A stretch of DNA of 42,720 nucleotides from Sulfurovaceae bacterium (GTDB lineage Bacteria; Campylobacterota; Campylobacteria; Campylobacterales; Sulfurovaceae). This document shows positions 1,985 through 40,084 of this stretch, piece by piece. Under the pieces are notes generated by a model, which ran no database searches, had not been told where the DNA came from, and saw only the letters and a program-made list of their open reading frames with translations. The stretch is taken from the NCBI GenBank assembly GCA_028714675.1, contig JAQTLV010000008.1, forward strand, positions 1 to 42,720, in the 5' to 3' direction. Both the position numbers and the translations under genes were made by a program. How positions within the stretch are numbered: position 1 is the first letter of the stretch; every line of letters begins with the position of its first letter.

Positions 1985-2008
1985 ATTATGTGAGTGTGTG
2001 AGTGTATA

Positions 2009-2083
2009 GTCATTCTGAATTTGTTTCAGAATCTAAAATTTATTCTAAAAAGTTAGATGCTGAACTAAATTCAGCATGATAGA
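2009..2083. repeat. REP/MITE-like double hairpin between convergent genes
   Basis: Two imperfect copies of a roughly 26-base sequence face each other. The left one contains ATTCTGAA-TTTG-TTTCAGAAT and the right one ATGCTGAA-CTAA-ATTCAGCAT, so each arm folds on itself and the two arms can also pair with each other. The element sits between the convergent ends of pgeF and the next gene. It resembles the dispersed palindromes common in intergenic regions of this phylum and may act as a bidirectional terminator. Just before it, TGTGAGTG is tandemly duplicated. Confidence 0.7.
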
Positions 2084-2120
2084 CATTATTATTTCAGATA
2101 TATTACTATTAATTTGAAAC

Positions 2121-3317: not shown

Positions 3318-3388
3318 ATCTTCTCCTTGGAATTTAACGAATTTTATCATAAAAAAGCTACATTTTAGAATTTGACATTGTATTTAGA

Positions 3389-3394
3389 TATAAT
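3389..3394 (+). promoter_or_regulatory. -10 element for the DedA-like gene
   Basis: TATAAT lies 31 bases before the TTG start of the 3425 gene, in a T-rich context typical of sigma70 promoters in this phylum, which need little -35 conservation. A TTGACA lies only 11 bases upstream, too close to serve as its -35. Confidence 0.5.
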
Positions 3395-3424
3395 ACATTT
3401 TCATTTTTATACTAAAGGGAAATT

Positions 3425-3982: not shown

Positions 3983-3985
3983 AGC

Positions 3986-5155: not shown

Positions 5156-5182
5156 ATATAACCCTTGTTAAAATATTGTAAT

Positions 5183-5188
5183 ATTATA
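5183..5188 (-). promoter_or_regulatory. -10 element for the aminotransferase gene
   Basis: On the minus strand TATAAT lies 27 bases before the ATG at 5155, within an AT-rich 78-base gap. No clear -35 box is visible. It suggests the gene need not depend on read-through from cysE. Confidence 0.45.
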
Positions 5189-5233
5189 CTAATTATTTGA
5201 TAGTAATTTACTTACACACTAGCTTTAATTGAA

Positions 5234-5956: not shown

Positions 5957-7816
5957 TTATTGCTGAAGCGCTTGTATAGTTTTAAGATAGCTATTTTCAC
6001 TTAAATACAGATAAAGAATACCAAGAAGCTCTCTCTTCTCATCATTAGTCAAAATAGAAGATTCTTCTATTTTATTTTTTAATGATTTATCAATTAAGCT
6101 AGTGTCATAATCTAAATCATCTAGTATATCCATAAGATTTTGTGCCTCTATAATCCCATCTGCATTATATTCACCATTTTTGTCAAATCTTATGATAGCT
6201 TCTGTTGGATGTGTAAAAAGATTATGTTTCATTCCAAGTACTTCTTGATATGCTCCTGTCAAGAAAAATGCCAAAAAGTACTCTTCTTCTTCTACATCTA
6301 TATCATGAAGATACAAAGGTGTTTTTGGCTTAAAGCCAAGTTCGCCATCACTATCACATGTAATATCCCAAATACTTGCTGGATTTGTAGGCTTTATATC
6401 CAGTTTGTTTAACGGAACAATAGGAAAACTTTGTGATAAGCCCCAAAAATCAGGCAATGATTGGAATACTGAAAAATTAACTAAATACTTTTCTTGTATT
6501 CTGCCTTGAAGCCTTCTTAGTTCATTGACATCTTCATCTTTTAAAAGCTGAATGGATTTTTTGATGATTAAATTGACTAAAATTTCCGTATTAGACCTAT
6601 CTTCAAGATCAATATAACCCAAATCAAATAGCGTAAGCAAGCTTTCCATGTGGTCTAGTGCATCATGCATATATTCTCTAGCATTTGTTTTTTTAAGAGA
6701 ATTGTATAAATCATATAACTCTTGTATTAGTGGCGGATTTTTCTCTTTTAGTCTTAAACTTTTTTCATTGTATTCTTGGGAAAAAAGTTCCAATACAGGT
6801 GCAATCAAAACAGAGTGATTTGCAGCTATAAAACGACCAGATTCAGTAAATATGTCAGGTTCTGGAACATTTTTGCTTTTTGAAATCTCTTGCATAAGAT
6901 ATATAACATCGTTTGAAAACTCTTTTATCGAATAATTTCTCTCTTGAGCATATGAGTGTTGAGAGTATTCAACAGCAAGACCACCACCTATGTTTATTGC
7001 CCTCAATGACTCAACGCCTCTCTTTTTGAGTTCAGCATAGATATTTCCAGCTTCTCTCAAAGCTTTTTTCAATGGAGCAATGTCTCCCATTTGTGAACCG
7101 ATGTGAAAATGTATCATCCATAGGCTATCAAGTAATGAATATTCTTTTAACATCTCATATGCTTCAAGAAGTTCTGTTGATGTTAAACCAAATTTTGAAC
7201 TATAACCACCACTTTTTGCCCATATACCAATTCCTGAACTATGCAATCTTATTCTAACACCAATTTTTGGAACCACTCTTTTTTTCACATCACTATTTAA
7301 CTCTTTGTCAACTTGTATGATAGTTTCAAGCTCTGTGATACCCTCTATGGTTATGGTTATATTATGACCCATTTTAGCAGCTATGAAACATAGAGCTATC
7401 ATCTCTTTGTCTTTAAAACCATTTACTGTTATAGGAGCACCTATAGGAGTTAAAGACATAGCTATAATAAGCTCAGCTTTACTACCAGCTTCCAATCCAT
7501 AATTATAGTTTTTTGCTATATCCATTAATTCATGTATAAAGTTAGGAAATTGATTTACCTTAAGAGGAAAAACTGCATGAAAATCACCCTTGTAACCAAA
7601 CTCTTTTTTTGCACTCTTGAAAGTTTGGAAAAGTGTATCAATCTGTTTTTTTATTAAGTGTGGAAATCTAAGAAGGACGGGACCTTTATATCCTCGTTCT
7701 CTTATATTGTTTGTAATATCTAAAAGTGATGGTTGTTTTCCATGGTTAACATTGATCGTATCTTTTTTGATAATAAAATTATTATCACTCCAGATATCTA
7801 TACCAAAATGCTTCAT
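5957..7816 (-). CDS. speA: Biosynthetic arginine decarboxylase
   Basis: This is a 619-residue fold-type III PLP decarboxylase that converts arginine to agmatine, the entry to polyamine synthesis. Visible features are the PLP lysine in FPLKVNQFPNF, GLEAGSKAEL, the MIHFHIGSQMGD motif, the glycine loop INIGGGLAVEY and the active-site cysteine stretch WDITCDSDGEL, all in the usual order. The ATG at 7816 is chosen over a TTG two codons upstream because AGGA then sits six bases before it. The gene follows pgpA after a 63-base gap that contains a TATAAT. With the carboxynorspermidine-type dehydrogenase at 2121 it suggests the agmatine, putrescine, carboxyspermidine, spermidine route. Confidence 0.94.
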   Translation of the reverse strand: MKHFGIDIWSDNNFIIKKDTINVNHGKQPSLLDITNNIRERGYKGPVLLRFPHLIKKQIDTLFQTFKSAKKEFGYKGDFHAVFPLKVNQFPNFIHELMDIAKNYNYGLEAGSKAELIIAMSLTPIGAPITVNGFKDKEMIALCFIAAKMGHNITITIEGITELETIIQVDKELNSDVKKRVVPKIGVRIRLHSSGIGIWAKSGGYSSKFGLTSTELLEAYEMLKEYSLLDSLWMIHFHIGSQMGDIAPLKKALREAGNIYAELKKRGVESLRAINIGGGLAVEYSQHSYAQERNYSIKEFSNDVIYLMQEISKSKNVPEPDIFTESGRFIAANHSVLIAPVLELFSQEYNEKSLRLKEKNPPLIQELYDLYNSLKKTNAREYMHDALDHMESLLTLFDLGYIDLEDRSNTEILVNLIIKKSIQLLKDEDVNELRRLQGRIQEKYLVNFSVFQSLPDFWGLSQSFPIVPLNKLDIKPTNPASIWDITCDSDGELGFKPKTPLYLHDIDVEEEEYFLAFFLTGAYQEVLGMKHNLFTHPTEAIIRFDKNGEYNADGIIEAQNLMDILDDLDYDTSLIDKSLKNKIEESSILTNDEKRELLGILYLYLSENSYLKTIQALQQ

Positions 7817-7848: not shown

Positions 7849-7879
7849 TCGAAAAGAACTGTACATTTAATATTTAATA

Positions 7880-8371
7880 TTAAATAATTTTTTGCAATAA
7901 TACAAGAATCAAGCCAGTCAGAAGACCACTTGCGATCCCGGCTAGTATGTCGTCTCCCATAACGCCAAGGCCACCTTTTACTTCTCTATCAATCCAACCA
8001 ATAGTAGATGGTTTATATATGTCAAAAGCTCTAAAAAATATAAAACTTAAAACATATCCCAGAATAATTAGAGTCGAACTACTTGTTATTGCTAAAACAC
8101 TATGGGTAAATAGCATAGCAATCCACATTCCACTTACTTCATCAATAACTATTTCACTATTATCATGAGAGTTTGTTGCAATTTCATACTTATTTATCTC
8201 AAAAATTGCAATTATCGTTATAGCAAGAGTTAACATAAAAAGTGTGCTTATACCAAGCGTATATATTATAGGAATTCCAACAATAAAAGCAGCAAAAGAA
8301 CCAGCTGTTCCTGGTGCCTTTGGAGAAAGTCCTGAACCAAAAAATGTTAAAAAAAGTTTTTGTAATGACAT
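7880..8371 (-). CDS. pgpA: Phosphatidylglycerophosphatase A
   Basis: This is a 163-residue integral membrane phosphatase of the PgpA family, which dephosphorylates phosphatidylglycerol phosphate to phosphatidylglycerol. The family blocks are present in order: KAPGTAGSFAA near the N-terminus, IVIDEVSGMW in the middle and VKGGLGVMGDDILAG toward the end, with four hydrophobic segments. AAAGG lies upstream of the ATG. The gene begins 12 bases after the ATP-sulfurylase-like gene, so it is in the same operon. I recall the same neighbour set (ispDF, response regulator, sat-like, pgpA) in Campylobacter jejuni. Confidence 0.93.
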   Translation of the reverse strand: MSLQKLFLTFFGSGLSPKAPGTAGSFAAFIVGIPIIYTLGISTLFMLTLAITIIAIFEINKYEIATNSHDNSEIVIDEVSGMWIAMLFTHSVLAITSSSTLIILGYVLSFIFFRAFDIYKPSTIGWIDREVKGGLGVMGDDILAGIASGLLTGLILVLLQKII

Positions 8372-8383
8372 ATAATTTAACCT

Positions 8384-9580
8384 TTATGTTAATGAGCTAG
8401 TTTGGTATAGTGTTATGAGTTCTATATAAAATGATTCATCAGTTTGCTCTTCTAAAAGTCCAGAGTTTGGAAACATATCATAATATAGATTTTGAACATC
8501 TTCAAATCTATTTGGAAATAATTGAGACAGTATATAGGAAGAAATCTCTTTTCTAACAAGTATAGTTGGTGGGACAACACCATTTTCTAAAAGTTTCAAT
8601 ATAGCATTTGAATTGTATTTTATGTGATGATGAGATCCATGAGGGCATGTTTCTCTACTTACTAATGTTTTGCAAATATTACAATAAACATACTCTTCTA
8701 CTACTTCAATATTTATTGATAGATTACCATATTCGCACTCATTAAATATAGTATTTATTTCATTGTCAGAATAATATACACTAAGCCCACCATGGTTTTT
8801 GCCAACTGTAAGTTCACTGCATCCATAATTTTTTGCAACTATAGCATCAAGAATTAGTTCATTATAGCCTGCAAATATATATGTATTTTCAAGAGGAACT
8901 ACTATCACCTTGTTTTTTGGTAAAAAGTTATCTATAAGTTTTTCCAGAGCTTTACTTCTTATGTCATAACTCAAACCATCATTATTAAAAGGTTTTCTTA
9001 AAAATAGTATGACTAAATCTGAGTGATTTAACTTTTGTCTTATTATTCTCTCATGAACCCTATTGAAAGGATTTGCGGCAAGCATCATTGCAGTTATCTT
9101 TTTTGCTCCCGTTTCTTGTATGGCATCTTTAACCTTCTTGATATTGTCTTCAACAGGAGGGTATTTTACACTATAATTACCACTAACTGCCATTTTCCCA
9201 AGTCTATTTATAGTATTTTTTACACCAGGATGAAGGGTATCGTTTGTTCCAAAAATATTAAATATTCTCTTTTCTGGGTCTATCTCAAAAATCTCTTCAA
9301 CAGTAAGTTCTCCAACTTTGCTATCATTACTTATCAAATCAACTATTTCTCCAGCTTTCAAAGATGATATTACTTCAAAGTTTTTTTTACCACTAGGCGC
9401 TAGTATAAAAGAAAAAGGCAATGGCATACCTTTGAAAACTTTACTTTTATCAACTTGCTCTGAAGTTTTTTTATTCATTAATCCATCAACAGGGTGTATT
9501 AGACCAGCTTGAACCAATGCAAGAGAAGATAATGCCTCCGTGTCTATATAGATTGATTTACTTTTTTTTGTAAATGTCAT
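8384..9580 (-). CDS. ATP-sulfurylase-like protein with degenerate active site
   Basis: This is a 398-residue homologue of dissimilatory/assimilatory ATP sulfurylase (Sat) over its full length. An N-terminal PUA-like part (IHPVDGLMNKK, IDPEKRIFNIFGT, HPGV) leads to the nucleotidyltransferase domain and a C-terminal zinc-ribbon-like YCNICK...CPHG. In Sat the catalytic motif is QxRNPxHRxHE. Here residues 167-177 read LAANPFNRVHE, so Gln, Arg and the first His are replaced. The GRDHAG loop reads GKNHGG at 260-265. Sulfate activation is therefore doubtful. It overlaps the response regulator by 23 bases and is followed by pgpA. AGGAAAAAAT precedes the ATG. Possible roles are another nucleotidyl transfer or a regulatory ligand-binding function; neither is shown. 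Confidence 0.85.
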   Translation of the reverse strand: MTFTKKSKSIYIDTEALSSLALVQAGLIHPVDGLMNKKTSEQVDKSKVFKGMPLPFSFILAPSGKKNFEVISSLKAGEIVDLISNDSKVGELTVEEIFEIDPEKRIFNIFGTNDTLHPGVKNTINRLGKMAVSGNYSVKYPPVEDNIKKVKDAIQETGAKKITAMMLAANPFNRVHERIIRQKLNHSDLVILFLRKPFNNDGLSYDIRSKALEKLIDNFLPKNKVIVVPLENTYIFAGYNELILDAIVAKNYGCSELTVGKNHGGLSVYYSDNEINTIFNECEYGNLSINIEVVEEYVYCNICKTLVSRETCPHGSHHHIKYNSNAILKLLENGVVPPTILVRKEISSYILSQLFPNRFEDVQNLYYDMFPNSGLLEEQTDESFYIELITLYQTSSLT

Positions 9581-10436: not shown

Positions 10437-11551
10437 AGTTTTGTCCAATTAAAGTAATTTAGCGTGGCAATAGCATGAACGCTGATTCCTTCACATCTTC
10501 CAACAAAACCAAGTTTTTCAGATGTTGTTGCTTTGATATTTACACTTCTTTGATTTATACCAAGTATTTTAGAAAGTGTTTGCCTCATTTTTTCTTTGTG
10601 TGGAGATATTTTTGGAATTTCAGCCAGTATAGTTATGTCAACATTGTTTATATCAAATCCATATGTATTTATCCTGTCAACACAAATTTTTAGAAGTTCT
10701 TTTGAGTCTATGCCTTTGTATTTGTTGTCGGTATCTGGGAAAAATTCTCCGATATCTCCTAGTCCTGCTGCCCCCAAGAGAGCATCTATGATAGCATGTA
10801 TTGCCACATCGCCATCACTATGAGCTTTGAAACCGAAACTATTTTCTATCATTTCTCCACAAAGATACATAGGTTTATTTTGCTCAAAAGGATGCGTATC
10901 TATGCCAAAACCTACAAAAGTTTTTTGTGATGGTGGTTTTAAGCAAGTAAGTTTTTTTAAGTCATCTGCAAATGTAAGCTTATGTGCATTTTGTGAACCT
11001 TCAACAAAAAGAATTTTATTGCCACTTTTGTGCATAGCACTACTATCATCCGTAAATACTTCATCGCTTTGTATGGCTTTTAAGAGGAGTTTAGTTTCGC
11101 TTAATTGTGGAGTTTGAATAAGCTTTGCACTTTCTCTATTTGCAGGGGAGTTGTCCATATATAAAGTATCTGATATATTTAGTGCCGGAACTATACAATC
11201 AGCTTTTTCTCTATTTCCTAGTATTCTTTTTATCATATCATGATTAATACAGCATCTAGCGATATCACTAACTAATACATATTTTGTTGAGACATTTTTC
11301 AAGGCATTTTTCAAAGACTCTTGTCTTGTTTCTCCACCCTCAACAAATGTGAATGTATCAAATTTTTTCATGTATTCTATTTCTTGAAAAGATGAAACGA
11401 TAATAGTTTCTTTGAAGCCATAACTTTTAAATTGTTTTGTTACAAAATACCACAATGGATCATCGCCTATATATAGCCATTGTTTTTTAGCTTTTAATCC
11501 AAATCTTGTAGAGTTTCCAGCCCCCAAAAGCACCAATGTAATATTATTCAA
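10433..11551 (-). CDS. ispDF: Bifunctional IspD/IspF (MEP isoprenoid pathway)
   Basis: This is a 372-residue fusion. Residues 1 to about 205 are IspD (2-C-methyl-D-erythritol 4-phosphate cytidylyltransferase), with LLGAGNSTRFGLKAKKQW for CTP binding and VSDIARC. Residues from about 212 on are IspF (MECDP synthase), with GFGIDTHPF, KAHSDGDVAIHAIIDALLGA and DIGEFFPDTD supplying the metal ligands. The fusion of two non-consecutive pathway steps is standard in Campylobacterota. The start is TTG with AAGGATTACTAT upstream; the N-terminus matches the family start. It heads the minus-strand operon and overlaps the next gene by four bases. Confidence 0.95.
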   Translation of the reverse strand: MNNITLVLLGAGNSTRFGLKAKKQWLYIGDDPLWYFVTKQFKSYGFKETIIVSSFQEIEYMKKFDTFTFVEGGETRQESLKNALKNVSTKYVLVSDIARCCINHDMIKRILGNREKADCIVPALNISDTLYMDNSPANRESAKLIQTPQLSETKLLLKAIQSDEVFTDDSSAMHKSGNKILFVEGSQNAHKLTFADDLKKLTCLKPPSQKTFVGFGIDTHPFEQNKPMYLCGEMIENSFGFKAHSDGDVAIHAIIDALLGAAGLGDIGEFFPDTDNKYKGIDSKELLKICVDRINTYGFDINNVDITILAEIPKISPHKEKMRQTLSKILGINQRSVNIKATTSEKLGFVGRCEGISVHAIATLNYFNWTKL

Positions 11552-11744: not shown

Positions 11745-13118
11745 ATGAGAGAAAAATGGATAGAAGATAGAAAAAGTGACAGAGTAAGAACTCAGATGTA
11801 TTATGCAAAAAAAGGCATTATTACTGAAGAGATGAAATATGTTGCAAAAATAGAAAACATTGACCCAGAGTTACTTAGAAGCGAATGCGCTAGAGGAAGA
11901 TGTATAATTCCAGCAAATGTAAATCATAGACATCAAATACCTATGGCTATTGGAATGGCTGCTAGTTGTAAAATAAATGCAAATATAGGCTCATCAGCAC
12001 TTGCAAGTGATATATCTGGAGAGATAGAAAAAGTTGATGTGTGCCTAAAATATGGTGCTGATACAATTATGGATTTAAGTACAGGCGGCGACCTAGATAG
12101 TATAAGAGAAGCAGTCATTGCTCACTCTACTGTGCCGATAGGAACAGTCCCGATGTATCAAATATTGCATGATTGTAACAATAAAATAGAAGATTTAACG
12201 ATAGAAAAAATGCTTGAAGTAATAGAAAAACAAGCAAAGCAGGGTGTTAGTTATTTTACAATTCATGCAGGGTTTTTGCTTAGATTTATGCCGCATGTTG
12301 CAAAGCGAAAAATGGGAATAGTGAGTCGTGGTGGATCTTTGATGGCTGCTTGGATGATGCATTACCATAGAGAAAATCCTTTTTATGAAGCCTACGATGC
12401 TATTTTAGATATTTGTCAAAAATATGATGTTGCTCTTTCTCTTGGTGATAGTCTTCGTCCAGGGTGTTTGCATGATGCTAGCGATGAAGCTCAGCTTAGT
12501 GAACTTAAAGTATTAGGTGAATTGACTCTAAGGGCTTGGGAAAAAGATGTTCAAGTTATGATAGAAGGACCAGGACATGTTCCACTTAATCAAATTGAGA
12601 GAAATATGAAGTTAGAGCGTGAATATTGCCATGAAGCACCTTTTTATATATTAGGACCTCTTGTAACAGATATAGCCGCTGGATATGACCATATAAGCTC
12701 TGCAATTGGTGCGGCAGTTGGCGGATGGCATGGTGCATCTATGCTTTGCTATGTAACACCAAAAGAACATCTTGGGCTTCCAAATGCAAATGATGTAAGA
12801 GAGGGTATAATTGCTTATAAAATTGCAGCACATGCTGCCGATATTGCAAGAGGCAGAAAAGGTGCAAGAGATGTGGATGATCTTATGAGTGATGCCAGAT
12901 ATAAATTTGATTGGAATCGTCAATTTGAACTAGCTCTTGATCCTGATCGTGCAAAAGAGTTTCATGACGAAACTTTACCTCAAGATGTATTTAAAGATGC
13001 AGAGTTTTGCTCCATGTGTGGACCAAAATTTTGTTCATATAAAATTACACAAAGTATCGTCGAAGAGCATGGCGAGACTATGAAGAATTCTCAAATTTTG
13101 AGCCAAGCTCAAAATTAG
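11745..13118 (+). CDS. thiC: Phosphomethylpyrimidine synthase ThiC
   Basis: This is a 457-residue radical SAM enzyme that rearranges 5-aminoimidazole ribotide to HMP-phosphate for the thiamin pyrimidine. Strong family blocks are [67 protein letters not shown] and [13 protein letters not shown]. The C-terminal CX2CX4C cluster ligand set (C422, C425, C430) is intact in [21 protein letters not shown] precedes the ATG. The last codons lie inside the arm of a repeated hairpin element (13089-13153), so the C-terminal LSQAQN tail may derive from that element. No TPP riboswitch is visible upstream. Confidence 0.96.
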
Positions 13119-13153
13119 GTCTTCAGCAGACGGCTCTCGCGACTAGTCGCTCT
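13089..13153 (+). repeat. 65-bp hairpin repeat, copy 1 (thiC/mrp)
   Basis: This copy aligns base for base with 16869-16933. It contains AATTTTGAGC-CAA-GCTCAAAATT, then GTCT-TCAGC-AGAC, then the perfect palindrome GCGACTAGTCGC. The first stem differs from copy 2 by paired changes that keep it intact. It overlaps the thiC 3' end and stop codon. No T-tract follows the stem, so it is not a canonical intrinsic terminator. Confidence 0.85.
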
Positions 13154-13194
13154 GTTTAATTGGTTTAATTTAAAAATTTATTAAAAGGAAAAAA

Positions 13195-16848: not shown

Positions 16849-16868
16849 TATTGGACTATTTGATTAAC

Positions 16869-16933
16869 TCTCAAATTTTAGGCAAAGCCTAAAATTAGGT
16901 CTTCGGCAGACGGTTCTCGCGACTAGTCGCTCT
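16869..16933. repeat. 65-bp hairpin repeat, copy 2 (between convergent genes)
   Basis: This is the second copy of the 13089-13153 element. Its first stem is AATTTTAGGC-AAA-GCCTAAAATT, followed by GTCT-TCGGC-AGAC and the same GCGACTAGTCGC palindrome. It lies between the convergent ends of the small acidic protein gene and glmS, a usual place for dispersed palindromic repeats or bidirectional terminators. Confidence 0.85.
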
Positions 16934-16969
16934 TTTGAACCATATTTATTTACAATCTTAACTGTTAAC

Positions 16970-21295: not shown

Positions 21296-22357
21296 ATGGA
21301 TTTGGTCAAAAAAATAGCAGATGGCATAAGACTTACCAAAGAAGAGGCAAATAAGCTTTATGATTTGGATCTAGATACTCTAGGTAAACTAGCGGATGAC
21401 ATAAGAAAAAAGAGATTTGGTAAAAAGAGTTATTTCAATATCAATCGCCACATAAACCCTACCAATGTATGTGCTGATATATGTAAATTTTGCGCTTATA
21501 GTGCAAGTAGAAAAAATCCAAGTCCATATACCATGACTCATGAAGAGATAGTAGAAATCGCCAAAAATTCTTATGCACATGGGGCAAAAGAAGTTCATAT
21601 AGTTTCAGCTCACAATGCCGAAGTTGGACTTGATTGGTATATGGGGGCATTTAGAAAAGTCAAAGATGCCCTGCCAGATATTCATATCAAAGCTCTCACA
21701 GCTGCAGAAGTTGACTTCCTCTCTCGTCAATATGGACATGATTATGACACTATCATAGATATGATGATAGCAAATGGAGTTGATAGTATGCCAGGAGGTG
21801 GAGCAGAGATATTTGACGAGAGTGTTCGCGAATATCTATGCAAAGGCAAGGTTAGTTCTACTGGTTGGCTAGAAATCCATAGAAAATGGCATGAGAGAGG
21901 CAGACAAAGCAACGCTACTATGCTTTTTGGACACATAGAAAGCAGGGAACACCGCATAGACCATATGCTACGCCTTCGTGATTTGCAAGATATCACAGGC
22001 GGATTCAATGCCTTTATCCCACTTGTCTATCAAAAAGAAAACAACTTCCTCAAAGTTGAAAACTATCCAACAGCTATCGAGATACTAAAAACTTATGCCA
22101 TAGCACGCATACTGCTAGACAACATCCCACACATCAAAGCTTATTGGGCTACATCTACCATAGGATTAGCCCTTGTTGCTCAAGAGTATGGTTGTGATGA
22201 CCTTGATGGCACTATAGAGCGTGAAGCTATCCAGAGTGCCGCAGGAGCTGCTAGTAGCCATGGTATGAAACTCGATGAGTTTGTAGGGCTTATCAAAAAT
22301 GCAGGATTTGTTCCTGTTGAACGCGATAGTTTGTATAATGAATTGAAGGTTTGGTAA
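21296..22357 (+). CDS. mqnE: Aminodeoxyfutalosine synthase (radical SAM)
   Basis: This is a 353-residue radical SAM enzyme that joins the radical SAM adenosyl group to 3-[(1-carboxyvinyl)oxy]benzoate, a step of the futalosine menaquinone pathway. The cluster motif CX3CX2C is C59, C63 and C66 in NVCADICKFCAYSA. Further family blocks are HIVSAHNAEVGLDWY, MPGGGAEIF, LFGHIESREHRIDH, GGFNAFIPLVYQ and AYWATSTIGLALVAQEYG. MqnC is the close paralogue, but these blocks and the length favour MqnE. The last codons and the stop (AAGGTTTGGTAA) recur 597 bases downstream. Other mqn genes are not nearby. Confidence 0.93.
   Translation: MDLVKKIADGIRLTKEEANKLYDLDLDTLGKLADDIRKKRFGKKSYFNINRHINPTNVCADICKFCAYSASRKNPSPYTMTHEEIVEIAKNSYAHGAKEVHIVSAHNAEVGLDWYMGAFRKVKDALPDIHIKALTAAEVDFLSRQYGHDYDTIIDMMIANGVDSMPGGGAEIFDESVREYLCKGKVSSTGWLEIHRKWHERGRQSNATMLFGHIESREHRIDHMLRLRDLQDITGGFNAFIPLVYQKENNFLKVENYPTAIEILKTYAIARILLDNIPHIKAYWATSTIGLALVAQEYGCDDLDGTIEREAIQSAAGAASSHGMKLDEFVGLIKNAGFVPVERDSLYNELKVW
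22345..22357 (+). repeat. 13-bp direct repeat, left copy (mqnE 3' end)
   Basis: GAAGGTTTGGTAA, which includes the last codons and stop of mqnE, is repeated exactly at 22942-22954. The two copies bracket the GIY-YIG gene and repeat element A. Confidence 0.7.
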
Positions 22358-22367
22358 GGATATAATT

Positions 22368-22787
22368 ATGAATACAATAAAAAATGTTATAAGCGAGACT
22401 GAAAGTTTTTTTGAAAAACATTGGTGCAAGAATGTGGAAATACCTCAATGGATTGGTGATTGGAAGTGGGAAGGTTCTGTGCCAAATCATGATAAAGTTG
22501 GTGTTTATGCACTTATTAATGAGAATGGAGAAGTGGTATATATCGGCGTAGGTGCTTCAAGAGGTGGTGGGCAATATAAAAATCATGGTTTGTCTTATAG
22601 ATTGTTAAACCATGTTATTACTACAGACAAGGGAAAAAGAAGAGGTTGTTATATAGCAAAAGAAAGATGGAAAGATGTTAAAGAGATTTATACGATAGGT
22701 TTTCCCGTGGATTCTTATATGTCTTTGGCATTGGAAGATTATTTAATTGCCAAATTGCAACCGACAAGAAACATTAATAAAAAATAA
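22368..22787 (+). CDS. GIY-YIG nuclease-domain protein
   Basis: This is a 139-residue protein. The GIY-YIG core is readable: GVYALI at 45-50 and VVYIG at 57-60 form the first two strands. Arg78 in YRLLNHV, Glu123 in ALEDYLIAKL and the QPTRNIN tail match the catalytic Arg and Glu and the terminal Asn. The N-terminal 40 residues, rich in Trp, are not recognised. There is no other domain, so it resembles small stand-alone GIY-YIG proteins of mobile elements or repair. AAGGATATAATT, overlapping the mqnE stop, is its ribosome-binding site, and the gap is ten bases. It may be read from the mqnE promoter. It is the first cassette of the accessory island. Confidence 0.75.
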   Translation: MNTIKNVISETESFFEKHWCKNVEIPQWIGDWKWEGSVPNHDKVGVYALINENGEVVYIGVGASRGGGQYKNHGLSYRLLNHVITTDKGKRRGCYIAKERWKDVKEIYTIGFPVDSYMSLALEDYLIAKLQPTRNINKK

Positions 22788-22790
22788 AAT

Positions 22791-22937
22791 CTAGCTCGTT
22801 TTTCTGGTTTCTCTGGTTCCACCTCTCCTGAGGTGTAACCCATAATTGTTACCTTTAGTAAGGATAGAAAATATAGAGAGCGGATGTGTTATAATGTTGC
22901 AAATATGTATGTATTCCACCTCAAGAGAGTTGGAACG
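22791..22937 (+). repeat. Promoter-bearing inverted-repeat element, copy A
   Basis: The left arm 22815-22838 and the right arm 22914-22937 are inverted copies, 20 of 24 positions identical. Each arm also folds on itself (CACCTC-TCCT-GAGGTG; TTCCACCTC-AAGA-GAGTTGGAA). Between them lies an extended -10, TGTGTTATAAT (22890-22895), in a 36-base block (22868-22903) identical to copy C. The left flank TAGCTCGTTT also recurs in copy C. The element leads into the HARE-HTH/nuclease gene. Confidence 0.85.
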
Positions 22938-22941
22938 AAAA

Positions 22942-22954
22942 GAAGGTTTGGTAA
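22942..22954 (+). repeat. 13-bp direct repeat, right copy
   Basis: This is an exact copy of the mqnE 3'-end sequence at 22345-22357, located directly after element A and before the ribosome-binding site of the next gene. Confidence 0.7.
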
Positions 22955-22973
22955 AATATATTAGGAGTAATAA

Positions 22974-23942
22974 ATGACAATAAAAGAAGCAATATTAAAA
23001 AGTTTAGAAGAAATTGATGGCTTGTCTAATCATTTGAAAATATACGAACATATTAAAAAAAAATCATATTACAATTTTAAGGATGCAAAAACTCCAGAGT
23101 CTACAATCTCGGCACTATTGGGGGATTTTATTAGAAAAGGTGACAATAGAGTAAAAAGAGTAAAGCAAGATGGAGGAACTTTCTCTTACTATCTTACTAA
23201 AAATGAACAAAATCTTGATATTGATAGTTTAAATACTGAGACAAAATCATCAGCTATAAGTACTAAAAATAAAAATTCTTATATGGAGAGAGATTTACAT
23301 AAACTTCTTAGTAGTTATTTGCATAATTCAAACATATATTCAAAAACAATTTTTCATGAGCAGTCAAATGGTAAAGATAACAGCCAAATTTGGACACATC
23401 CAGATATGGTTGGTATTAAATTTTTAAATCTACAAAGCAAAATAAGTCAAAATTTTTTAAAATCAATAAACCGTGTTGATACATTTAAAATATATTCTTA
23501 TGAATTAAAAAAAGAAATAAATAATGATACACAGCTTAAGCAGGCATATTTTCAAGCAGTTTCAAATAGCAGCTGGTCAAATTATGGTTATTTGGTTGCA
23601 TTTGATTTTAGTGATAGTTTGTTTGAAGAAATGGAAAGATTAAATCAATCATTTGGAATAGGAATTATAGAGCTTAATGCAAATCCATGGCAGAGCAAAG
23701 TTTTATTTACTTCAAGATATAAAGAGTTGGATTTTAAAACCATAGATAAGCTTTGTAAAATGAATAAAGAATTTGAAAGTTTTATAGAGTATGCAGAAAA
23801 AATAATGACTGCTGATGAAAAATATTTTGATGGTGTAAAAAAAGAGTTTAATGGTTTTTGTGATGAATATTTATCTGATGATACTGAAGTTGAAAAGTAC
23901 TGTAAAGAAAAACATATTCCTATGGAAGATGTGAATGACTAA
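22974..23942 (+). CDS. HARE-HTH plus PD-(D/E)XK nuclease-like protein (HrgA/COG2958-like)
   Basis: The protein has 322 residues. Residues 1-75 look like a HARE-HTH winged domain (IKEAILKSLEEIDGLSNHLKIYEHI, then TISALLGDFIRKG and GTFSYYLTK), a module linked to restriction systems. After a polar linker, residues 105-215 have a nuclease-like set: E105, D144 in THPDMVGIKF, E177-L-K179 in YSYELKKE and Q194 in AYFQAVSNSSW. This is the order expected of PD-(D/E)XK enzymes. It resembles HrgA, found at a restriction-modification locus in Helicobacter pylori; that match is from memory. AGGAG lies six bases before the ATG. It is followed by a HEPN-like gene after 32 bases, probably one operon driven by element A. 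No methyltransferase is nearby. Confidence 0.7.
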   Translation: MTIKEAILKSLEEIDGLSNHLKIYEHIKKKSYYNFKDAKTPESTISALLGDFIRKGDNRVKRVKQDGGTFSYYLTKNEQNLDIDSLNTETKSSAISTKNKNSYMERDLHKLLSSYLHNSNIYSKTIFHEQSNGKDNSQIWTHPDMVGIKFLNLQSKISQNFLKSINRVDTFKIYSYELKKEINNDTQLKQAYFQAVSNSSWSNYGYLVAFDFSDSLFEEMERLNQSFGIGIIELNANPWQSKVLFTSRYKELDFKTIDKLCKMNKEFESFIEYAEKIMTADEKYFDGVKKEFNGFCDEYLSDDTEVEKYCKEKHIPMEDVND

Positions 23943-23974
23943 GATAATTGTCAGCCGTTGTAGGTAGGAGCAAT

Positions 23975-24511
23975 ATGGACTTCATCAAACTTATTAATGA
24001 TTCTGAAAAATGGCCTAGCTTTGAGAGTCCAAGTCATCTCGATGAGTTGAATGAAATTGCGGATGAAGCATTCAAGAAAAATACGATTGAGGGCTATCTT
24101 GCTATGTTGTTAATTTACCATCAACTTTGTGAAGAGATGGTAAAACTACTAATTGAAGACTCTAGATTTTTCATAAAAGCAAGCATATATCCAACTGAAA
24201 TTAAGTTTCCAAACAGCAATAAGATAATGTTTGGACGCACAATTGAACAATTGAAAGAATCTGTGGAATTTCACAATAAAGACTTATTCATACAAAAATG
24301 CCAAAGTTTTAACGAAGTCAGAAATTCAGTTGTTCATGGGCTGACCAAGCAGACTTCAGTAAATACAGTTAAGAATAAACTAAAAAAAGTAAAGACCATT
24401 TTTGACCAAATTTTCAACTTGTTCGAAGAATCACATGACTGGTTTCACTTATGTTTTAAAGATTTTAAAAAAGATAAGTTCATTGATTACGACAATGAAT
24501 CAAATCTATAA
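23975..24511 (+). CDS. HEPN-like protein (RX4-6H motif)
   Basis: This is a 178-residue, mainly helical protein. The HEPN RNase signature is readable as R116-NSVV-H121-G in FNEVRNSVVHGLTK, at the start of a long helix, and an earlier helix carries LAMLLIYHQLCEEMVKLLIED. HEPN proteins are often ribonuclease toxins or defence effectors. The ATG at 23975 is chosen because TAGGAG precedes it by four bases; the frame opens nine codons earlier from a TTG with no site. It follows the HARE-HTH/nuclease gene and precedes repeat copy B. No MNT antitoxin neighbour is present. Toxic activity is inference from the motif. Confidence 0.65.
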   Translation: MDFIKLINDSEKWPSFESPSHLDELNEIADEAFKKNTIEGYLAMLLIYHQLCEEMVKLLIEDSRFFIKASIYPTEIKFPNSNKIMFGRTIEQLKESVEFHNKDLFIQKCQSFNEVRNSVVHGLTKQTSVNTVKNKLKKVKTIFDQIFNLFEESHDWFHLCFKDFKKDKFIDYDNESNL

Positions 24512-24544
24512 TAACGAATATAAGAACCATCCGCTTGAGAATAG

Positions 24545-24656
24545 AAAATATAGATATGGGAATGTGTTATAATGTTGCAAAGTATGTATACATTCCACTT
24601 CGGGAGAGATGGAACAAGAAAAGGTATATATACATTCCACCTGTGTAGAGGCAGAA
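24545..24656 (+). repeat. Promoter-bearing repeat element, copy B, with duplicated hairpin leader
   Basis: The block AAAATATAGA...GTGTTATAATGTTGCAAA matches copies A and C with one insertion. It continues with TGTATACATTCCAC, where TGTATACA is a palindrome at 24585-24592, and the right-arm hairpin ending GGAAC. The arm plus its flank is then tandemly repeated with period 42 (24582-24623 and 24624-24665, about 32 of 42 identical). The left arm is degenerate. It leads into the BrnA-like gene. Confidence 0.75.
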
Positions 24657-24673
24657 CAAAGAGAGGGATTTTT

Positions 24674-24901
24674 ATGAGCAACATTAAAGATAGAGAAAAA
24701 TTCGACAATTATGAGATGAAAGAGGAATATGACTTTAGCGGAGGTGTGAGAGGTAGATTTTATAAACCAAAAAAGATACCAACTACACTTAGACTTGATG
24801 ATGATATCATTTTGTATTTCAAAAAAAGAGCAAGTGAAGAGAAAGTTCCATATCAGACGCTTATCAATGCATTTTTAAGAAAAGAGTTAAAAGCTGTTTG
24901 A
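24674..24901 (+). CDS. BrnA/CopG-like antitoxin, apparently without toxin
   Basis: This is a 75-residue protein with the layout of BrnA-type ribbon-helix-helix antitoxins: YDFSGGVRGRFYKP, then IPTTLRLDDDIILYFKKRA, then VPYQTLINAFLRKEL. Such proteins neutralise BrnT RNase toxins and repress their own promoter. A BrnT gene would normally sit directly upstream; here the 162 bases upstream hold only repeat copy B. The ATG at 24674 follows AGAGAGGG; the reading frame could extend 34 codons upstream, but those codons read through the repeat. The orphan may repress the shared promoters of this island. Antitoxin family is fairly sure; the target is unknown. Confidence 0.78.
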   Translation: MSNIKDREKFDNYEMKEEYDFSGGVRGRFYKPKKIPTTLRLDDDIILYFKKRASEEKVPYQTLINAFLRKELKAV

Positions 24902-24910
24902 AAATAGTCT

Positions 24911-25048
24911 TAGCTCGTTTCTTTGGTTCCACCTCTCCTGAGGAGTAACCCACATTATTATATCTAATAGATGGGTAAAAATATAGAGAGCGGATGTGTT
25001 ATAATGTTGCAAAAGTATGTATACATTTCACCCAAGGAAATGCGGAAC
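24911..25048 (+). repeat. Promoter-bearing inverted-repeat element, copy C
   Basis: It is column-aligned with copy A: TAGCTCGTTT, left hairpin 24925-24950, the identical 36-base promoter block 24978-25013 with TATAAT at 25000-25005, the palindrome TGTATACA at 25018-25025, then a decayed right arm ending GCGGAACG. The distance from left arm to promoter block is exactly 56 bases in both copies. It precedes the GNAT gene. Confidence 0.85.
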
Positions 25049-25111
25049 GATAAAAACCACGCTTTCTAAATTCACAAAAAGTACATTTTAACTTTTCGCG
25101 TAAGGAAATAT

Positions 25112-25570
25112 ATGAATATTGAACTTATTCAAGCAACCACAGACGATGCTTCTGAAATTCTGGCACTTCAGAAAATCGCATATGTAAAAGAGGCAATATT
25201 ATATAATGATTGGAATATTCCTCCTCTGACTCAAAGTCTTTCTGAAATTCAAAATGAATTTAGAACAAGTAGAGTCATTAAAGCGATAGTGAGCACCAAG
25301 ATTATCGGCTCAGTAAGAGCATCATTTGAATCTGACATATGTAAAATAGGTAGACTTATTGTTCATCCAGAATATCAGCATAAGGGTATCGGATCATTGC
25401 TAATGCATAATATAGAAAACCAATTTCCAAATGCAAAACGATTTGAATTATTTACTGGCACTAAAAGCGTTGATAATATTCGGCTCTACCGAAAATTAGG
25501 CTATATGGAATGCCATCAACAGGAATTATCACCTAATGTACGAATTGTATTTATGGAAAAAATAAAATAA
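25112..25570 (+). CDS. GNAT family N-acetyltransferase
   Basis: This is a 152-residue GNAT acetyltransferase. The acetyl-CoA loop is readable in RLIVHPEYQHKGIGSLLM (Q89xxGxG), and the C-terminal NIRLYRKLGYMEC strand is typical. AAGGAAATAT precedes the ATG. The substrate is not predictable; candidates include small molecules, antibiotics or, in toxin-antitoxin contexts, aminoacyl-tRNA. No DUF1778/RHH antitoxin is directly adjacent, though the orphan BrnA-like gene is 210 bases upstream. Several arginine codons are CGN (for example CGG and CGA near the 3' end), unlike the AGA-rich neighbours, which fits acquisition by transfer. Confidence 0.85.
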   Translation: MNIELIQATTDDASEILALQKIAYVKEAILYNDWNIPPLTQSLSEIQNEFRTSRVIKAIVSTKIIGSVRASFESDICKIGRLIVHPEYQHKGIGSLLMHNIENQFPNAKRFELFTGTKSVDNIRLYRKLGYMECHQQELSPNVRIVFMEKIK

Positions 25571-25656
25571 GAGCCACCAACTAAGTAGCTTGTTTCTATC
25601 GTTTTGATGAGAATGCATATAAATCCTATATTCTTGCAAGATTTTAGAATTTTATA

Positions 25657-25662
25657 TATACT
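25657..25662 (+). promoter_or_regulatory. -10 element implying a leaderless transcript
   Basis: TATACT ends seven bases before the ATG at 25669, so a transcript would begin about at the start codon. No ribosome-binding site is visible in CTTCTTGT before the ATG. Confidence 0.4.
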
Positions 25663-25668
25663 TCTTGT

Positions 25669-26100
25669 ATGAAAAATACATTGATAGAGGAACAAAGTGT
25701 TTCCTTAATAAGTTGGACAAGAGCATTGGCAGCATGGTTTTTTATCGCAGTTGCGGAATCAATACAAGGAACTATCCGAAGAATCTTTATATTGCCAGTG
25801 ATAGGCGACTTGCGTGCACATCAAGTTGGAATATTGATTGCATCAGTCATCATCTTTATCATTTCATGGATTTGTATTCGCTGGATTGGTGCGAGAACAT
25901 TTTCGGAACAATTAAAAGTTGGAGCGTTGTGGGTGGTTCTTATGGCCATTTTTGAGGTTAGCCTCGGTTTGGCATTTGGCTATTCACAAGAGCGTATTTT
26001 TTCCGACTATAACATCGCGGAGGGTAGGCTTATGATTTTTGGCATGATTTTTATGTTGTTCGCTCCAGCACTTGCGGCAAAGGCACGCGACTTCAGCTAA
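25669..26100 (+). CDS. Small four-helix membrane protein, unknown function
   Basis: The protein has 143 residues with hydrophobic segments near 18-34, 52-70, 84-103 and 122-137, separated by short charged loops (IRWIGARTFSEQLKVGA). I do not recognise a family. The gene is clearly richer in G+C (about 43 percent by eye) and uses CGT/CGC/CGA for more than half of its arginines, unlike the surrounding AGA-rich genes. This points to horizontal origin. The ATG lacks a ribosome-binding site; a -10 directly upstream suggests a leaderless mRNA. It closes the accessory island before the surface-protein locus. Confidence 0.7.
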   Translation: MKNTLIEEQSVSLISWTRALAAWFFIAVAESIQGTIRRIFILPVIGDLRAHQVGILIASVIIFIISWICIRWIGARTFSEQLKVGALWVVLMAIFEVSLGLAFGYSQERIFSDYNIAEGRLMIFGMIFMLFAPALAAKARDFS

Positions 26101-26195: not shown

Positions 26196-27158
26196 ATGAG
26201 AAGATTCATATTAGTTGCCTATGTATGGATATTGTTAGGAGTTGCTTGTATCTACGCTAAAGGCGTTTTAGCAGGTACCGAAATTAGCAATTTTGCTACA
26301 TTACAATATGAGATTAATGGAATACCATATACTGCTGATAGTAATACTATTACAGATAAAGTTGATCAGATAATAGATGTTGATGTAGTATGGAATGATA
26401 TATCTCCGATAATTGTAGCAAGTGGAGAAACAGAACGAGCACTTAGATTTAAAGTTACTAATATAGGCAATGGGGATGATACATTTAACCTCATTTATGA
26501 TATAGCAGATCTTTCTTCTGATTTTACTGTAACAAATCCAAAAATTTATATAGATACTAATAATAATGGGATATTTGATATATCAGTAGATCAGGAGACA
26601 TACAGTATTACTTTGACAGCTGATGCCTTTTCTACAATTTTTTTAGTTTCAGACATGCCGACAGAGTCATACATATCTGGAAGCATCTCAAACAATGCCA
26701 TAGAGGCCAAATCTACTATTGGTGGTTCAGGAGCTCCAGGAACTACATACGCTGGAGCAGGTACAGATGGTGTCTTCGCAGTAGATGGCATGAGTGGTGG
26801 TGTAGATAAAGACTGGGGAAAGTATGAAATGAGCAATAACCTTGGAGTTAAACTTACCAAAAGTGCTACACATAGTGGCACTGAAGTAACTACTGGTACA
26901 ATTATGATGTATAATATAGTTGTAGAACTTCAAGGAAATGGAAGTGTGGATAACTTAATCATTACAGATGCTATACCAGTAGGTACTACTTATGTAGCTG
27001 GCTCTTTGAAGCTTGATGGTGTTATCTTGACTGATATTGCCGATGGTGACAGTGGTATATTTACTGGTAGTGGTATAGAAGTAAATTTAGGTACTGCTAC
27101 GCAAACGACAGGAGTTCCGTATATAAAAACCATTTCATTTGAGGTAATGATAAACTAG
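26196..27158 (+). CDS. Secreted DUF11-type surface protein (locus gene 1)
   Basis: The protein has 320 residues with a signal peptide (RRFILVAYVWILLGVACIYA). The N-terminal module reads AGTEISNFATLQYEINGIPY, a pattern shared with the proteins at 27791 and 28962. The middle is beta-rich, Asp/Thr/Gly-rich and contains calcium-loop-like DTNNNGIFD near residue 130. The last 95 residues form a DUF11-like domain (IMMYNIVVELQGNG, VDNLIITDAIPVGTTYVAGS). The ATG is chosen because GGAG lies six bases upstream; an ATG four codons earlier has no site. It is likely exported by Sec; whether it is anchored or released is unknown. Two hairpins follow the stop. Confidence 0.75.
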   Translation: MRRFILVAYVWILLGVACIYAKGVLAGTEISNFATLQYEINGIPYTADSNTITDKVDQIIDVDVVWNDISPIIVASGETERALRFKVTNIGNGDDTFNLIYDIADLSSDFTVTNPKIYIDTNNNGIFDISVDQETYSITLTADAFSTIFLVSDMPTESYISGSISNNAIEAKSTIGGSGAPGTTYAGAGTDGVFAVDGMSGGVDKDWGKYEMSNNLGVKLTKSATHSGTEVTTGTIMMYNIVVELQGNGSVDNLIITDAIPVGTTYVAGSLKLDGVILTDIADGDSGIFTGSGIEVNLGTATQTTGVPYIKTISFEVMIN

Positions 27159-27162
27159 GCAG

Positions 27163-27232
27163 CCTCTCTAAATTTTGTGTGCAAGATTTAGAGAGGTTAC
27201 CTAAAACCTTCAAGCTAGCTGCAAATAGCTTG
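27163..27232 (+). terminator. Two hairpins between locus genes 1 and 2
   Basis: CCTCTCTAAAT (27163-27173) pairs with ATTTAGAGAGG (27186-27196). CAAGCTA (27211-27217) pairs with TAGCTTG (27226-27232), followed by TATTTT. The first lacks a T-tract; the second could attenuate or stabilise the mRNA and sits just before the next ribosome-binding site. Confidence 0.6.
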
Positions 27233-36480: not shown

Positions 36481-36501
36481 GTTTTATAAAATTTAAAAGT
36501 G

Positions 36502-36507
36502 TATAAT
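36502..36507 (+). promoter_or_regulatory. -10 element directly before the phosphoribosyltransferase start
   Basis: TATAAT ends six bases before the ATG at 36514, so transcription would start at or within a base or two of the start codon. No ribosome-binding site is visible there. Confidence 0.55.
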
Positions 36508-36513
36508 ATAACT

Positions 36514-36969
36514 ATGATAAAAGAATATTACTCATATGAAGATTTTAGAAGAGACCTTAGAACATTAACAAAAAAGATAAATAAGCCATTTGATACTATC
36601 ATGGGCATATCAAGAGGTGGGCTTAGCATGGCTCAGATGTTGGGTGAATATTATAATATCAGAAAAGTTTATGCCATAAACTCTATCGGTTATGATGATA
36701 CCATAAAACTTGATGAGGTAAGAATATTTAATACCCCAGATCTCAGCGATAGCAAAGCAGTACTGATAGTTGATGATATACTTGATAGTGGCGAAACAAT
36801 GGTAAAAGTTTTAGATATTTTAAAAGAAAAATACCCAGATGTAATTTTATATGTCGCCTCTATTTTTTATAAGAAAAGTGCTAAAATAGCACCAGATTGG
36901 TTTGTAAAAGAACCACAAAACTGGATTGATTTTTTTTGGACAGTTGATTTAAAAGAGGATAAAGTATGA
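36514..36969 (+). CDS. Phosphoribosyltransferase (purine-type)
   Basis: This is a 151-residue type I phosphoribosyltransferase. The PRPP loop is VLIVDDILDSGET at 83-95 and the upstream MGISRGGLSMAQML is the usual second motif. Small size and the hood residues near the C-terminus (DWFVKEPQNWIDFFW) resemble xanthine/hypoxanthine-guanine phosphoribosyltransferases, so purine salvage is likely; the base is not certain. The ATG at 36514 fits the family start. A GTG 15 bases upstream is also in frame but would sit before the -10 element. It overlaps the glutamine amidotransferase gene by four bases (ATGA). Confidence 0.85.
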   Translation: MIKEYYSYEDFRRDLRTLTKKINKPFDTIMGISRGGLSMAQMLGEYYNIRKVYAINSIGYDDTIKLDEVRIFNTPDLSDSKAVLIVDDILDSGETMVKVLDILKEKYPDVILYVASIFYKKSAKIAPDWFVKEPQNWIDFFWTVDLKEDKV

Positions 36970-38740: not shown

Positions 38741-40075
38741 ATGGCTCAAAAGGCGATTAGAGAGTATGATGCCAAATCTATTTTGGCAAAACATTGGAAT
38801 AAATATTTTCCAGATTTTACATATGCTTACGAAACAGTATTAGTTGAAAATGGTACTGGGTTAAAAGACGAAGCAAAAACAAAAACTTGGCTTACCAATA
38901 AAGCCTTAGTAGCCAAACCTGATATGCTTTTTGGGAAAAGAGGCAAGAATGGTTTAGTGTTATTTAGAGATAACAAACCAGGTGATGTTACTTTAGAAAA
39001 AGCAGCATCCTGGATAGATGAAAAAGCAAAAGAAAAACAAAATGTATATTTTTCTTTTCATGGTGATACACCAGATGGAGAACCTAAAACAGACTTTTTA
39101 ACTCAATTTATAGTTGAGCCATTTACTCCTCACGCACAAGAAGAAGAGTACTATATAAGTGCAACTTGTGTTGGCGATGATGATGTTTTATATATGTCAG
39201 CAGAAGGTGGTATGGAAGTAGAAGAAAATTGGGATAAGGTGATAGAAGTTACTTTCCCTATTACTGCTACAGAAGATGAGATTGAAGCAAAAATAAGAGC
39301 AAATATTCCTGCAGATGTTGCAGGCAAAGATAAAGAAGGATTTGCAAAATTTGCAATAGGTTTTTTTAAGGCATATAGAGAATTAAATTTTGCATATCTT
39401 GAAATAAATCCATTTGTAATGCAAGGCAATAAAATAGAACTTCTTGATATGGTTGCCAAACTTGACGATACAGCTGGATTTATGATGACTAAAGAGTGGG
39501 GAGATATAGAATACCCAACAGCATTTGGCATGGAAGAGAAATCTCCTGAAGTTATGGCGATAGAAGAAGCTGATAGCAAATCTGGTGCATCATTGAAATT
39601 AACTATTTTAAAACCTGAAGCTAGAATTTGGACTATGGTTGCAGGCGGTGGAGCATCTGTTGTTTATGCTGATACCATTGCAGACCTTGCTGGAATTGAA
39701 GATTTAGCAAACTATGGTGAATATAGTGGCGGACCGACAACGGGCGAAACACAATTTTATGCAGAAACCGTTTTAGATTTGATGACAAGAGAAAAAGATC
39801 CAAAAGGTAGAGATAAAGTTCTTATTATTGGTGGGGCTATTGCAAACTTTACAGATGTTGCAGCAACATTTACGGGTATTATCAAAGCATTTGAAAATTA
39901 TGCCGAAAAAATGAAAGATGTTGGCATCAGAATATATGTTAGAAGAGGTGGGCCTAACTATGAAAAAGGTCTTAAAGATATCAAAGAAGCAGCAGATAGA
40001 CTTGGTCTTTGGATAGATGTATATGGACCAGAAACACATGTTACGGATATCGTTAGAATGGCAGTTGAGGCATAA
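38741..40075 (+). CDS. aclB: ATP-citrate lyase, small (beta) subunit
   Basis: This is a 444-residue subunit with an ATP-grasp fold related to succinyl-CoA synthetase beta. Visible blocks are REYDAKSILAKHW at the N-terminus, KPDMLFGKRGKNGLV, FIVEPFTPHAQEEEYY, ELNFAYLEINPFV and the citrate-binding WTMVAGGGASVVYADT and GEYSGGPTTGETQF. Together with AclA it cleaves citrate with ATP and CoA to acetyl-CoA and oxaloacetate, the key step of the reductive TCA cycle. AAGGAG lies before the ATG. The aclA start is nine bases after its stop. The pair marks an autotrophic lifestyle. Confidence 0.95.
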   Translation: MAQKAIREYDAKSILAKHWNKYFPDFTYAYETVLVENGTGLKDEAKTKTWLTNKALVAKPDMLFGKRGKNGLVLFRDNKPGDVTLEKAASWIDEKAKEKQNVYFSFHGDTPDGEPKTDFLTQFIVEPFTPHAQEEEYYISATCVGDDDVLYMSAEGGMEVEENWDKVIEVTFPITATEDEIEAKIRANIPADVAGKDKEGFAKFAIGFFKAYRELNFAYLEINPFVMQGNKIELLDMVAKLDDTAGFMMTKEWGDIEYPTAFGMEEKSPEVMAIEEADSKSGASLKLTILKPEARIWTMVAGGGASVVYADTIADLAGIEDLANYGEYSGGPTTGETQFYAETVLDLMTREKDPKGRDKVLIIGGAIANFTDVAATFTGIIKAFENYAEKMKDVGIRIYVRRGGPNYEKGLKDIKEAADRLGLWIDVYGPETHVTDIVRMAVEA

Positions 40076-40084
40076 GGAGAGAAA

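Follow-up and report, generated by a model that had tools for sequence, protein, structure and literature searches.

The window analyzed here is a stretch of 42,720 nucleotides from a Sulfurovaceae bacterium (assembly GCA_028714675.1, contig JAQTLV010000008.1, positions 1 to 42,720 of the forward strand), in which three intergenic elements, A, B and C, and a fourth module, D, lie between the accessory genes of a variable segment (Table 1). We consider it probable that all four are repetitive extragenic palindromes (REPs), or the REP doublets known as REPINs, that settled at the gene junctions of this accessory-gene hotspot, that the spacer of the A/B/C subtype keeps an extended -10 promoter, and that the cargo genes are gained and lost by another route. 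Judging from the sequences, REPINs most likely colonized a cassette hotspot and supplied it with portable promoters.

That A, B and C are genuine copies of one repeat family, as an earlier note on this DNA had proposed, was confirmed, and all three lie where that note had placed them. The longest exact word common to the intergenic regions of A and C is a 36-base block, far beyond chance, the best of 300 dinucleotide shuffles reaching 13; the corresponding block of B is 69% identical and has exactly retained TGTGTTATAATGTTGCAAA. The left arm is equally spaced from the block in A and C, at the 56 bases given in the note if the arm begins three bases earlier and at 53 if counted from GGTTCC, and the shared flank TAGCTCGTTT occurs within the window at positions 22792 and 24911 only. 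The two arms of A, which had been described as inverted and self-folding, match as inverted repeats at 25/33 positions over the whole arm, and each of them folds on itself as a REP hairpin. The right arm is indeed found twice in B, from which the left arm is missing; A and C are inverted doublets with a spacer, and D is single. With the covariance model of the arms described below (R1), the right and left arms of A and the right arm of B returned E-values of 2e-9 to 4e-8 in the window. The REP of module D alone returned 0.92; this module, which was absent from the earlier note and follows the GNAT gene, aligns with two modules of the relative G001 located upstream of a CAT-like gene and of a 109-aa gene. 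An Rfam search of the whole window yielded no matches.

Searching the family with element A, in a sample of one genome per species, detected the arm by itself in numerous genomes, where it frequently forms inverted pairs; complete elements turned up in G001, G006 and a second place of the own genome (G000) only. In two relatives, inverted arms flank an open reading frame (ORF) of ~180 aa that scores above the cut-off of the NCBIfam model NF047646, 'REP-associated tyrosine transposase' (RAYT). An intact homologue (73% identical) resides in the own genome at C3:303538-304068, flanked by CTCGTTCCACCTCTCTGTAGGTGGAATGCATAC and its inverted copies, and weakly matches the solved E. coli TnpAREP structure 4er8. 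RAYT flanks consist of CTCGTTCC-stem-GGAATGCATAC hairpins in the own genome, G002, G006, G009 and G010, with a different stem sequence in each. Folding of the arms, a check proposed in the earlier note, was borne out by the covariance model R1, built from 32 arms: 58 cells changed on both sides of the stem compared to 18.5 in shuffles, and 96% of the stem cells were paired compared to 35-54% when slid. The arms of the window share their consensus with the REPs that flank the RAYT of the own genome. Since the arms are REPs and the same hairpin also flanks the RAYT here and in congeners, A and C are REPINs, and B is a REPIN whose left arm was lost. RAYT/REPIN elements of this arm type are predicted to move themselves by means of the RAYT. 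Covariance-model searches of the own genome gave 24 REPs, a lower bound because only 150 of the 421 first-look candidates were scored; the REP consensus was also met in Gammaproteobacteria, Deltaproteobacteria, other Campylobacterota and a few other groups. A text search of the literature for the hairpin sequences returned unrelated papers only. As a side observation, one REP lies within an identical stretch present on two contigs (C2:313422 and C9:21611; loci L100 and L103), which reflects either a duplication within the chromosome or an artefact of the assembly.

A and C (127 bp each) form, with two copies from contig C2 and others from G001 and G006, a long REPIN subtype of ~120-130 bp, the norm of the genus being 82 bp. 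The C2 copies (134372-134489 and 135479-135568) are diverged and, together with the full elements of G001 and G006, are the further copies for which the earlier note had suggested searching the genome and its relatives. The long subtype has retained the block TGTGTTAYAATRTTRCAA, with a conserved extended -10 sequence, TGTGTTAYAAT, in the spacer. Mean pairwise identity among six full copies was 91% for the left hairpin, 84% for the promoter-like block, 60% for the spacer and 48% for the right arm. In A, B and C, as on contig C54 of G001, the block has the reading TGnTATAAT, and a constant TATAAT is held neither by the 82-bp REPINs of the genus nor by the RAYT ends. At three mismatches, the own genome revealed no promoter-block copies beyond A, B and C, and the exact block pattern had no matches in viral contigs. 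For most long copies, the next gene starts 30-200 nt downstream in the same sense. On the grounds of sequence and conservation, the block may act as a promoter, and a transcription signal common to the elements, as claimed earlier, is likely. A -35/-10 scan for sigma-70 sites was uninformative, with 28 sites compared to 18.8 in shuffles, and did not list the extended -10 sites.

In the mechanism that we propose, the RAYT would be the likely mover of the REP hairpins, presumably through single-stranded DNA, and a strong extended -10 promoter would be retained by the spacer between the hairpins in the A/B/C subtype. With transcription starting around the edge of the right hairpin, the mRNA of the downstream accessory gene would begin with that hairpin, for which a leader function is putative. 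The hotspot itself would gain and lose cargo by a route other than REPs, an attC-type array being present in a congener. Acquired genes, perhaps formerly attC cassettes, would have been colonized by REPINs giving each gene a portable promoter of its own.

Two further promoter-like stretches were observed. One accompanies a REP on the flank of purH in three genomes, G000, G005 and G009 (L095 2112-2160, L047 1904-1951 and L123 ~1570), and given its presence in all three seems to be ancestral and fixed there. The other, TTTATAGAAATTTATATATAATKGTTGTTRAATA, recurs at hotspot 3 upstream of five distinct accessory genes, and two of its copies are 99% identical over 79 bp.

Hotspot 1, the variable segment of the window, begins at the stop codon of an MqnC/CofH-like gene. 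This gene and a phosphoribosyltransferase-like gene are directly adjacent in G002, G007 and G009, which lack the segment; in the window 14 kb separate them, and the segment is unshared with G001. Different cargo occupies the site in G001, G010 and G006, that of G001 including an Mrr-like nuclease, an M50 peptidase and a CAT-like protein among others. A long REPIN lies between the Mrr and M50 genes of G001, the Mrr reading frame ending within its left hairpin, and the same intergenic modules are interleaved with different cargo in the window and in G001. Hotspot 1 is a gene-exchange site whose cargo has been swapped among congeners. As to the cargo of the window, the GIY-YIG gene had no relatives at E ≤ 1e-8 among 399 genomes of the order, the GNAT gene had none at E ≤ 1e-20 among 175 genomes of the family, and a relative of the HARE-HTH gene was present in 72/399 genomes of the order.

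The pattern is repeated at hotspot 2, flanked by a leucine-rich-repeat gene and a nifN-like gene, in the own genome (DUF4238-like, 77-aa and 124-aa cargo) and in G001 (a ParE-type toxin pair, 147 aa and 113 aa). In both species and at both syntenic hotspots, the long element precedes accessory genes that are unrelated to one another; whether other copies also flank such genes was a check proposed in the earlier note. The same note had held that copies at housekeeping genes would speak against a cassette family; full elements were found mostly at accessory hotspots, although solitary REPs of the family also adjoin ordinary core genes. About 13 of the 24 REPs of the own genome lie in three hotspots representing ~0.8% of the genome, a figure that is biased upward because the hotspots were partly recognized via REPs. 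At hotspot 2, a second, statistically significant copy of the leucine-rich-repeat gene 3′ end lies beyond the inserted block in G000 (32 nt, 91% identical) and in G010 (42 nt, 88% identical). Both near-copies adjoin a REP, the 32-nt one sitting directly outside it, which suggests that blocks were inserted at this site. A candidate copy of the anchor gene 3′ end behind element A (22934-22954) was set aside because its 13 exact bases were reached in 8/400 Markov resamples.

The resemblance to an integron drawn by the earlier note proved apt in that the same site is an attC array in G010, where a run of small ORFs has attC-type sites at the stop codons (L087 1867, 2391, 3734 and 4041, at 80-95 bits, plus two weaker ones). 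The integron integrase model TIGR02249 reached its cut-off in 0/11 genomes of the genus, with Xer-like (XerC/D-like) matches only, and a weak Xer-like signal was equally present in 14/14 control genomes. Since no IntI was found in the genus, the attC-type arrays, including that of G010 at hotspot 1, would be CALIN (attC arrays without an integrase). Integrons have already been recorded in Campylobacterota (PMC8618304). Arrays of this kind were noted at L087 (G010 C6) 1867-5338 and at L301 (own genome C4) 717-784 and 1449-1519, representing two attC subtypes. Hotspot 3 (own genome, C3:182-191 kb) carries AbiU-like and 4TM effector-like genes along with attC-type sites of ~70 nt, a kind present in 19/175 family genomes. 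Elsewhere in the family, REPs landed inside attC sites, interrupting them at L095 6529-6609 and, on the minus strand, at L298 (G127 C86) 1640-1770 and 1910-2090; two of these REPs interrupt the attC stem at almost identical positions. At hotspot 2 of G001, an attC-like start, CTCTAACAAATGG, is directly followed by a REP. Four of 24 attC sites had a REP within 150 bp, in loci selected mainly for their attC, compared to an expected 0.08 if REPs were uniform and 0.8 if they were confined to a tenth of the genome. In the window, a hairpin behind the DUF11 gene (27146-27214), outside the repeats, matched the attC-type model R3 at 33 bits (E 7.5e-7) with differing letters; it may be an attC, a terminator or a chance fold.

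Several observations weigh against the reading that REPINs with promoters colonized a former cassette site. The full copy on contig C81 of G006 does not precede a same-strand gene start. The leader folds of A, B and C (z-scores of -0.8, -1.5 and -0.4) did not differ significantly from shuffles, those of A and C being no better than shuffled sequence, which speaks against specially stable leader RNAs. The REPs bear the tag CTCG throughout, with no GTAG beside the hairpin. The REP tag has been described as 'most often GTAG' (PMC8266576), from which it follows that GTAG is not strictly required, and the CTCG repeats nevertheless stay outside the GTAG superfamily. Finally, as the earlier note had seen of canonical sites, no attC was found near A-C by a model search or a generic scan; with no such remnant there, an attC past of the window array is a guess.

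A different account holds that REPs bound the mobile unit itself, made of promoter, gene and REP, and that such modules are inserted and removed by recombination or by the RAYT at REPs, as an integrase-free analogue of an integron. Constant intergenic modules with variable cargo at two syntenic hotspots of two species fit this idea, as do the REPs placed, with a shared orientation, behind the stop codon of most cargo genes, which is the position that attC sites occupy in integrons, and the 32-nt near-copy of the anchor gene 3′ end that borders the hotspot 2 array directly outside a REP. Lying downstream of genes is, however, the norm for REPs generally (PMC3733652), solitary REPs adjoin core genes, and the hotspot 1 cargo of G010 is devoid of REPs of the window family. 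Moreover, no REP was present within flanks of ~1.5 kb of the HARE homologues of ~20 other genomes, so that travel of cargo with its own REP was not borne out for this gene, and the cassette-type mobile island of the earlier note holds as a syntenic hotspot with cargo differing between species but not as genes moving with their repeats. Among the three cargo genes compared, none recurred elsewhere together with its bounding REP, the GIY-YIG and GNAT cargo having no close relatives for comparison. We regard this account as unlikely, and as decidedly doubtful its extension to an integrase-free cassette system of REPs and RAYT, whose promoter-gene-REP units would be cut and joined as single strands at their REPs; if true, attC and the missing Pc promoter would have been supplanted in former attC arrays.

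Were A, B and C instead diverged integron sites of a degenerate CALIN, with hairpins that are merely REP-like, the palindromic sites between genes, the attC-type array that G010 has in this very place and REPs located at an attC start, as at hotspot 2 of G001, would find an explanation; yet the arms match the REP model with E-values down to 2e-9, share their consensus with the RAYT flanks and stand among no attC matches, the generic scan of the variable segment giving 1 candidate compared to 2.7 in shuffles. This possibility is largely refuted by the REP-model matches and seems barely tenable. Plain segmental duplication, by which an intergenic region and its promoter were copied locally without any mobile element, would account for the flank TAGCTCGTTT, the left arm and the block being shared in register by A and C, but the element also occurs on another contig, in two other species and at a second hotspot, its arms are a widespread REP family, and the elements are not confined to tandem copies at one locus; we hold such a duplication to be very improbable. 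The conserved block might also be part of what the RAYT recognizes in the REPIN rather than a promoter, a view consistent with its being conserved as highly as a structural part would be and with some RAYT left ends reading outward GTTATAGTTGC or GTCATAATTTGC beside the REP. Against it, RAYT ends and the 82-bp REPINs lack a constant TATAAT, A, B, C and G001 C54 keep TGnTATAAT, and module D has a different stretch that is also promoter-like, which makes recognition a rather unlikely explanation and leaves promoter-bearing REPINs as the reading that we prefer.

Among known systems, the elements most closely resemble REPIN/RAYT, with two inverted, self-folding intergenic hairpins, a spacer and a consensus shared with the hairpins on either side of a Y1 HUH transposase gene; at 94-96 bp, their REP spacing falls within the range described for P. 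fluorescens, 71-110 bp (PMC3116915). They depart from described REPINs in their CTCG tag and GGAATGCATAC tail instead of GTAG, in their low copy number and in a long subtype with a conserved promoter-like spacer located mostly in accessory-gene hotspots; the tag, this promoter-bearing subtype and its place at cassette-hotspot junctions are what is new. TIRYT/TIRtrons, relatives of RAYT flanked by terminal inverted repeats (PMC3733652), likewise combine a RAYT-type gene with inverted-repeat flanks that lack GTAG, some of them self-complementary and forming families, but the GGGGWSAS motif is missing here and the protein passes the RAYT model. Small accessory genes in one orientation, including toxin-antitoxin and defence-like ones, with a palindromic site after each stop codon recall CALIN, of which the same site of G010 is an example; unlike CALIN, the window has palindromes that are REPs and no attC near A-C, and IntI stays below cut-off in the genus. 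Group IIC introns and IS1111-attC elements insert in attC sites (PMC7923331), as some REPs do here, although what inserts here is a REP (33-127 bp), and any specificity for attC is putative.

Elsewhere in the window, a 100-base direct repeat (13081-13180 and 16861-16960; GGTCTTC-GCAGACGG..TCTCGCGACTAGTCGCTCT) is 79% identical over copies 3.8 kb apart, and ATP-citrate-lyase-like genes are found at 38741-41899. From the latter and from the relatives bearing the same REP, the organism is presumably an autotroph of the Campylobacterota type.

Table 1. Coordinates of the repeat elements, cargo and flanking genes (window positions unless a locus is named).
Feature	Position	Strand	Evidence
Intergenic element A	22791-22940
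A, left REP hairpin	22813-22845	+	R1, 40.0 bits, E 1.6e-8
A, 36-base block with extended -10 TGTGTTATAAT	22868-22903	+	identical to 24978-25013
A, right REP hairpin, canonical type, predicted 5′ leader hairpin	22907-22939	-	R1, 43.3 bits, E 2e-9; fold
Intergenic element B	24535-24660
B, promoter block, left REP missing	24546-24581	+	24535-24620 = R2 positions 48-125, E 1.4e-11
B, first right REP hairpin	24586-24618	-	R1, 38.5 bits
B, second right REP hairpin, tandem copy, degenerate	24628-24660	-	R1, 18.7 bits
Intergenic element C	24911-25053
C, left REP hairpin	24923-24955	+	R1, 24.1 bits
C, 36-base promoter block	24978-25013	+	identity with element A block
C, right REP hairpin, degenerate	25019-25051	-	R1 13 bits, E 0.32; recognized by position only
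Module D, degenerate REP (25589-25620) and promoter-like TATATATACT, before ORF 25669-26100	25587-25664	+	REP scan; alignment with two G001 modules
Variable (hotspot) segment	22358-34200		synteny comparison
Left anchor, radical-SAM menaquinone-pathway gene, MqnC/CofH-like	21296-22357	+	Pfam Radical_SAM and CofH_C
GIY-YIG domain protein, 139 aa, accessory	22368-22787	+	Pfam PF01541
HARE-HTH protein, 322 aa, accessory	22974-23942	+	PF05066 weak, below cut-off
HEPN-like protein (RNSVVH), 187 aa, accessory	23948-24511	+	weak matches to HEPN parts of Csm6/CARF-HEPN
BrnA/CopG-like antitoxin, 75 aa, no adjoining BrnT toxin	24674-24901	+	PF14384 above cut-off
GNAT acetyltransferase, 152 aa, accessory	25112-25570	+	PF00583
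143-aa accessory protein, unassigned family	25669-26100	+	no Pfam matches
Right-side conserved gene, phosphoribosyltransferase-like	36499-36969	+	synteny
Leucine-rich-repeat 3′-end duplications	L043 2173-2202 and 4070-4101; L092 3625-3669 and 5863-5903
Hotspot 3 promoter-like block copies	L095 (own genome C3:180000-194000) 5394-5472, 6641-6683, 7856-7934, 8486-8528, 10724-10802

REPINs are usually regarded as selfish or neutral. A REPIN subtype whose promoter-like block is better kept than its own right arm, and which stands before unrelated accessory genes, would have a concrete way to pay its way, as it could make newly arrived genes expressible. The family described here, with its low copy number and CTCG tag, is a testable one. 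If confirmed, our reading would bring RAYT/REP and integron attC, both of them systems of single-strand hairpins, together at a single site, and would help to account for the expression of cassettes in arrays that have neither an integrase nor Pc.

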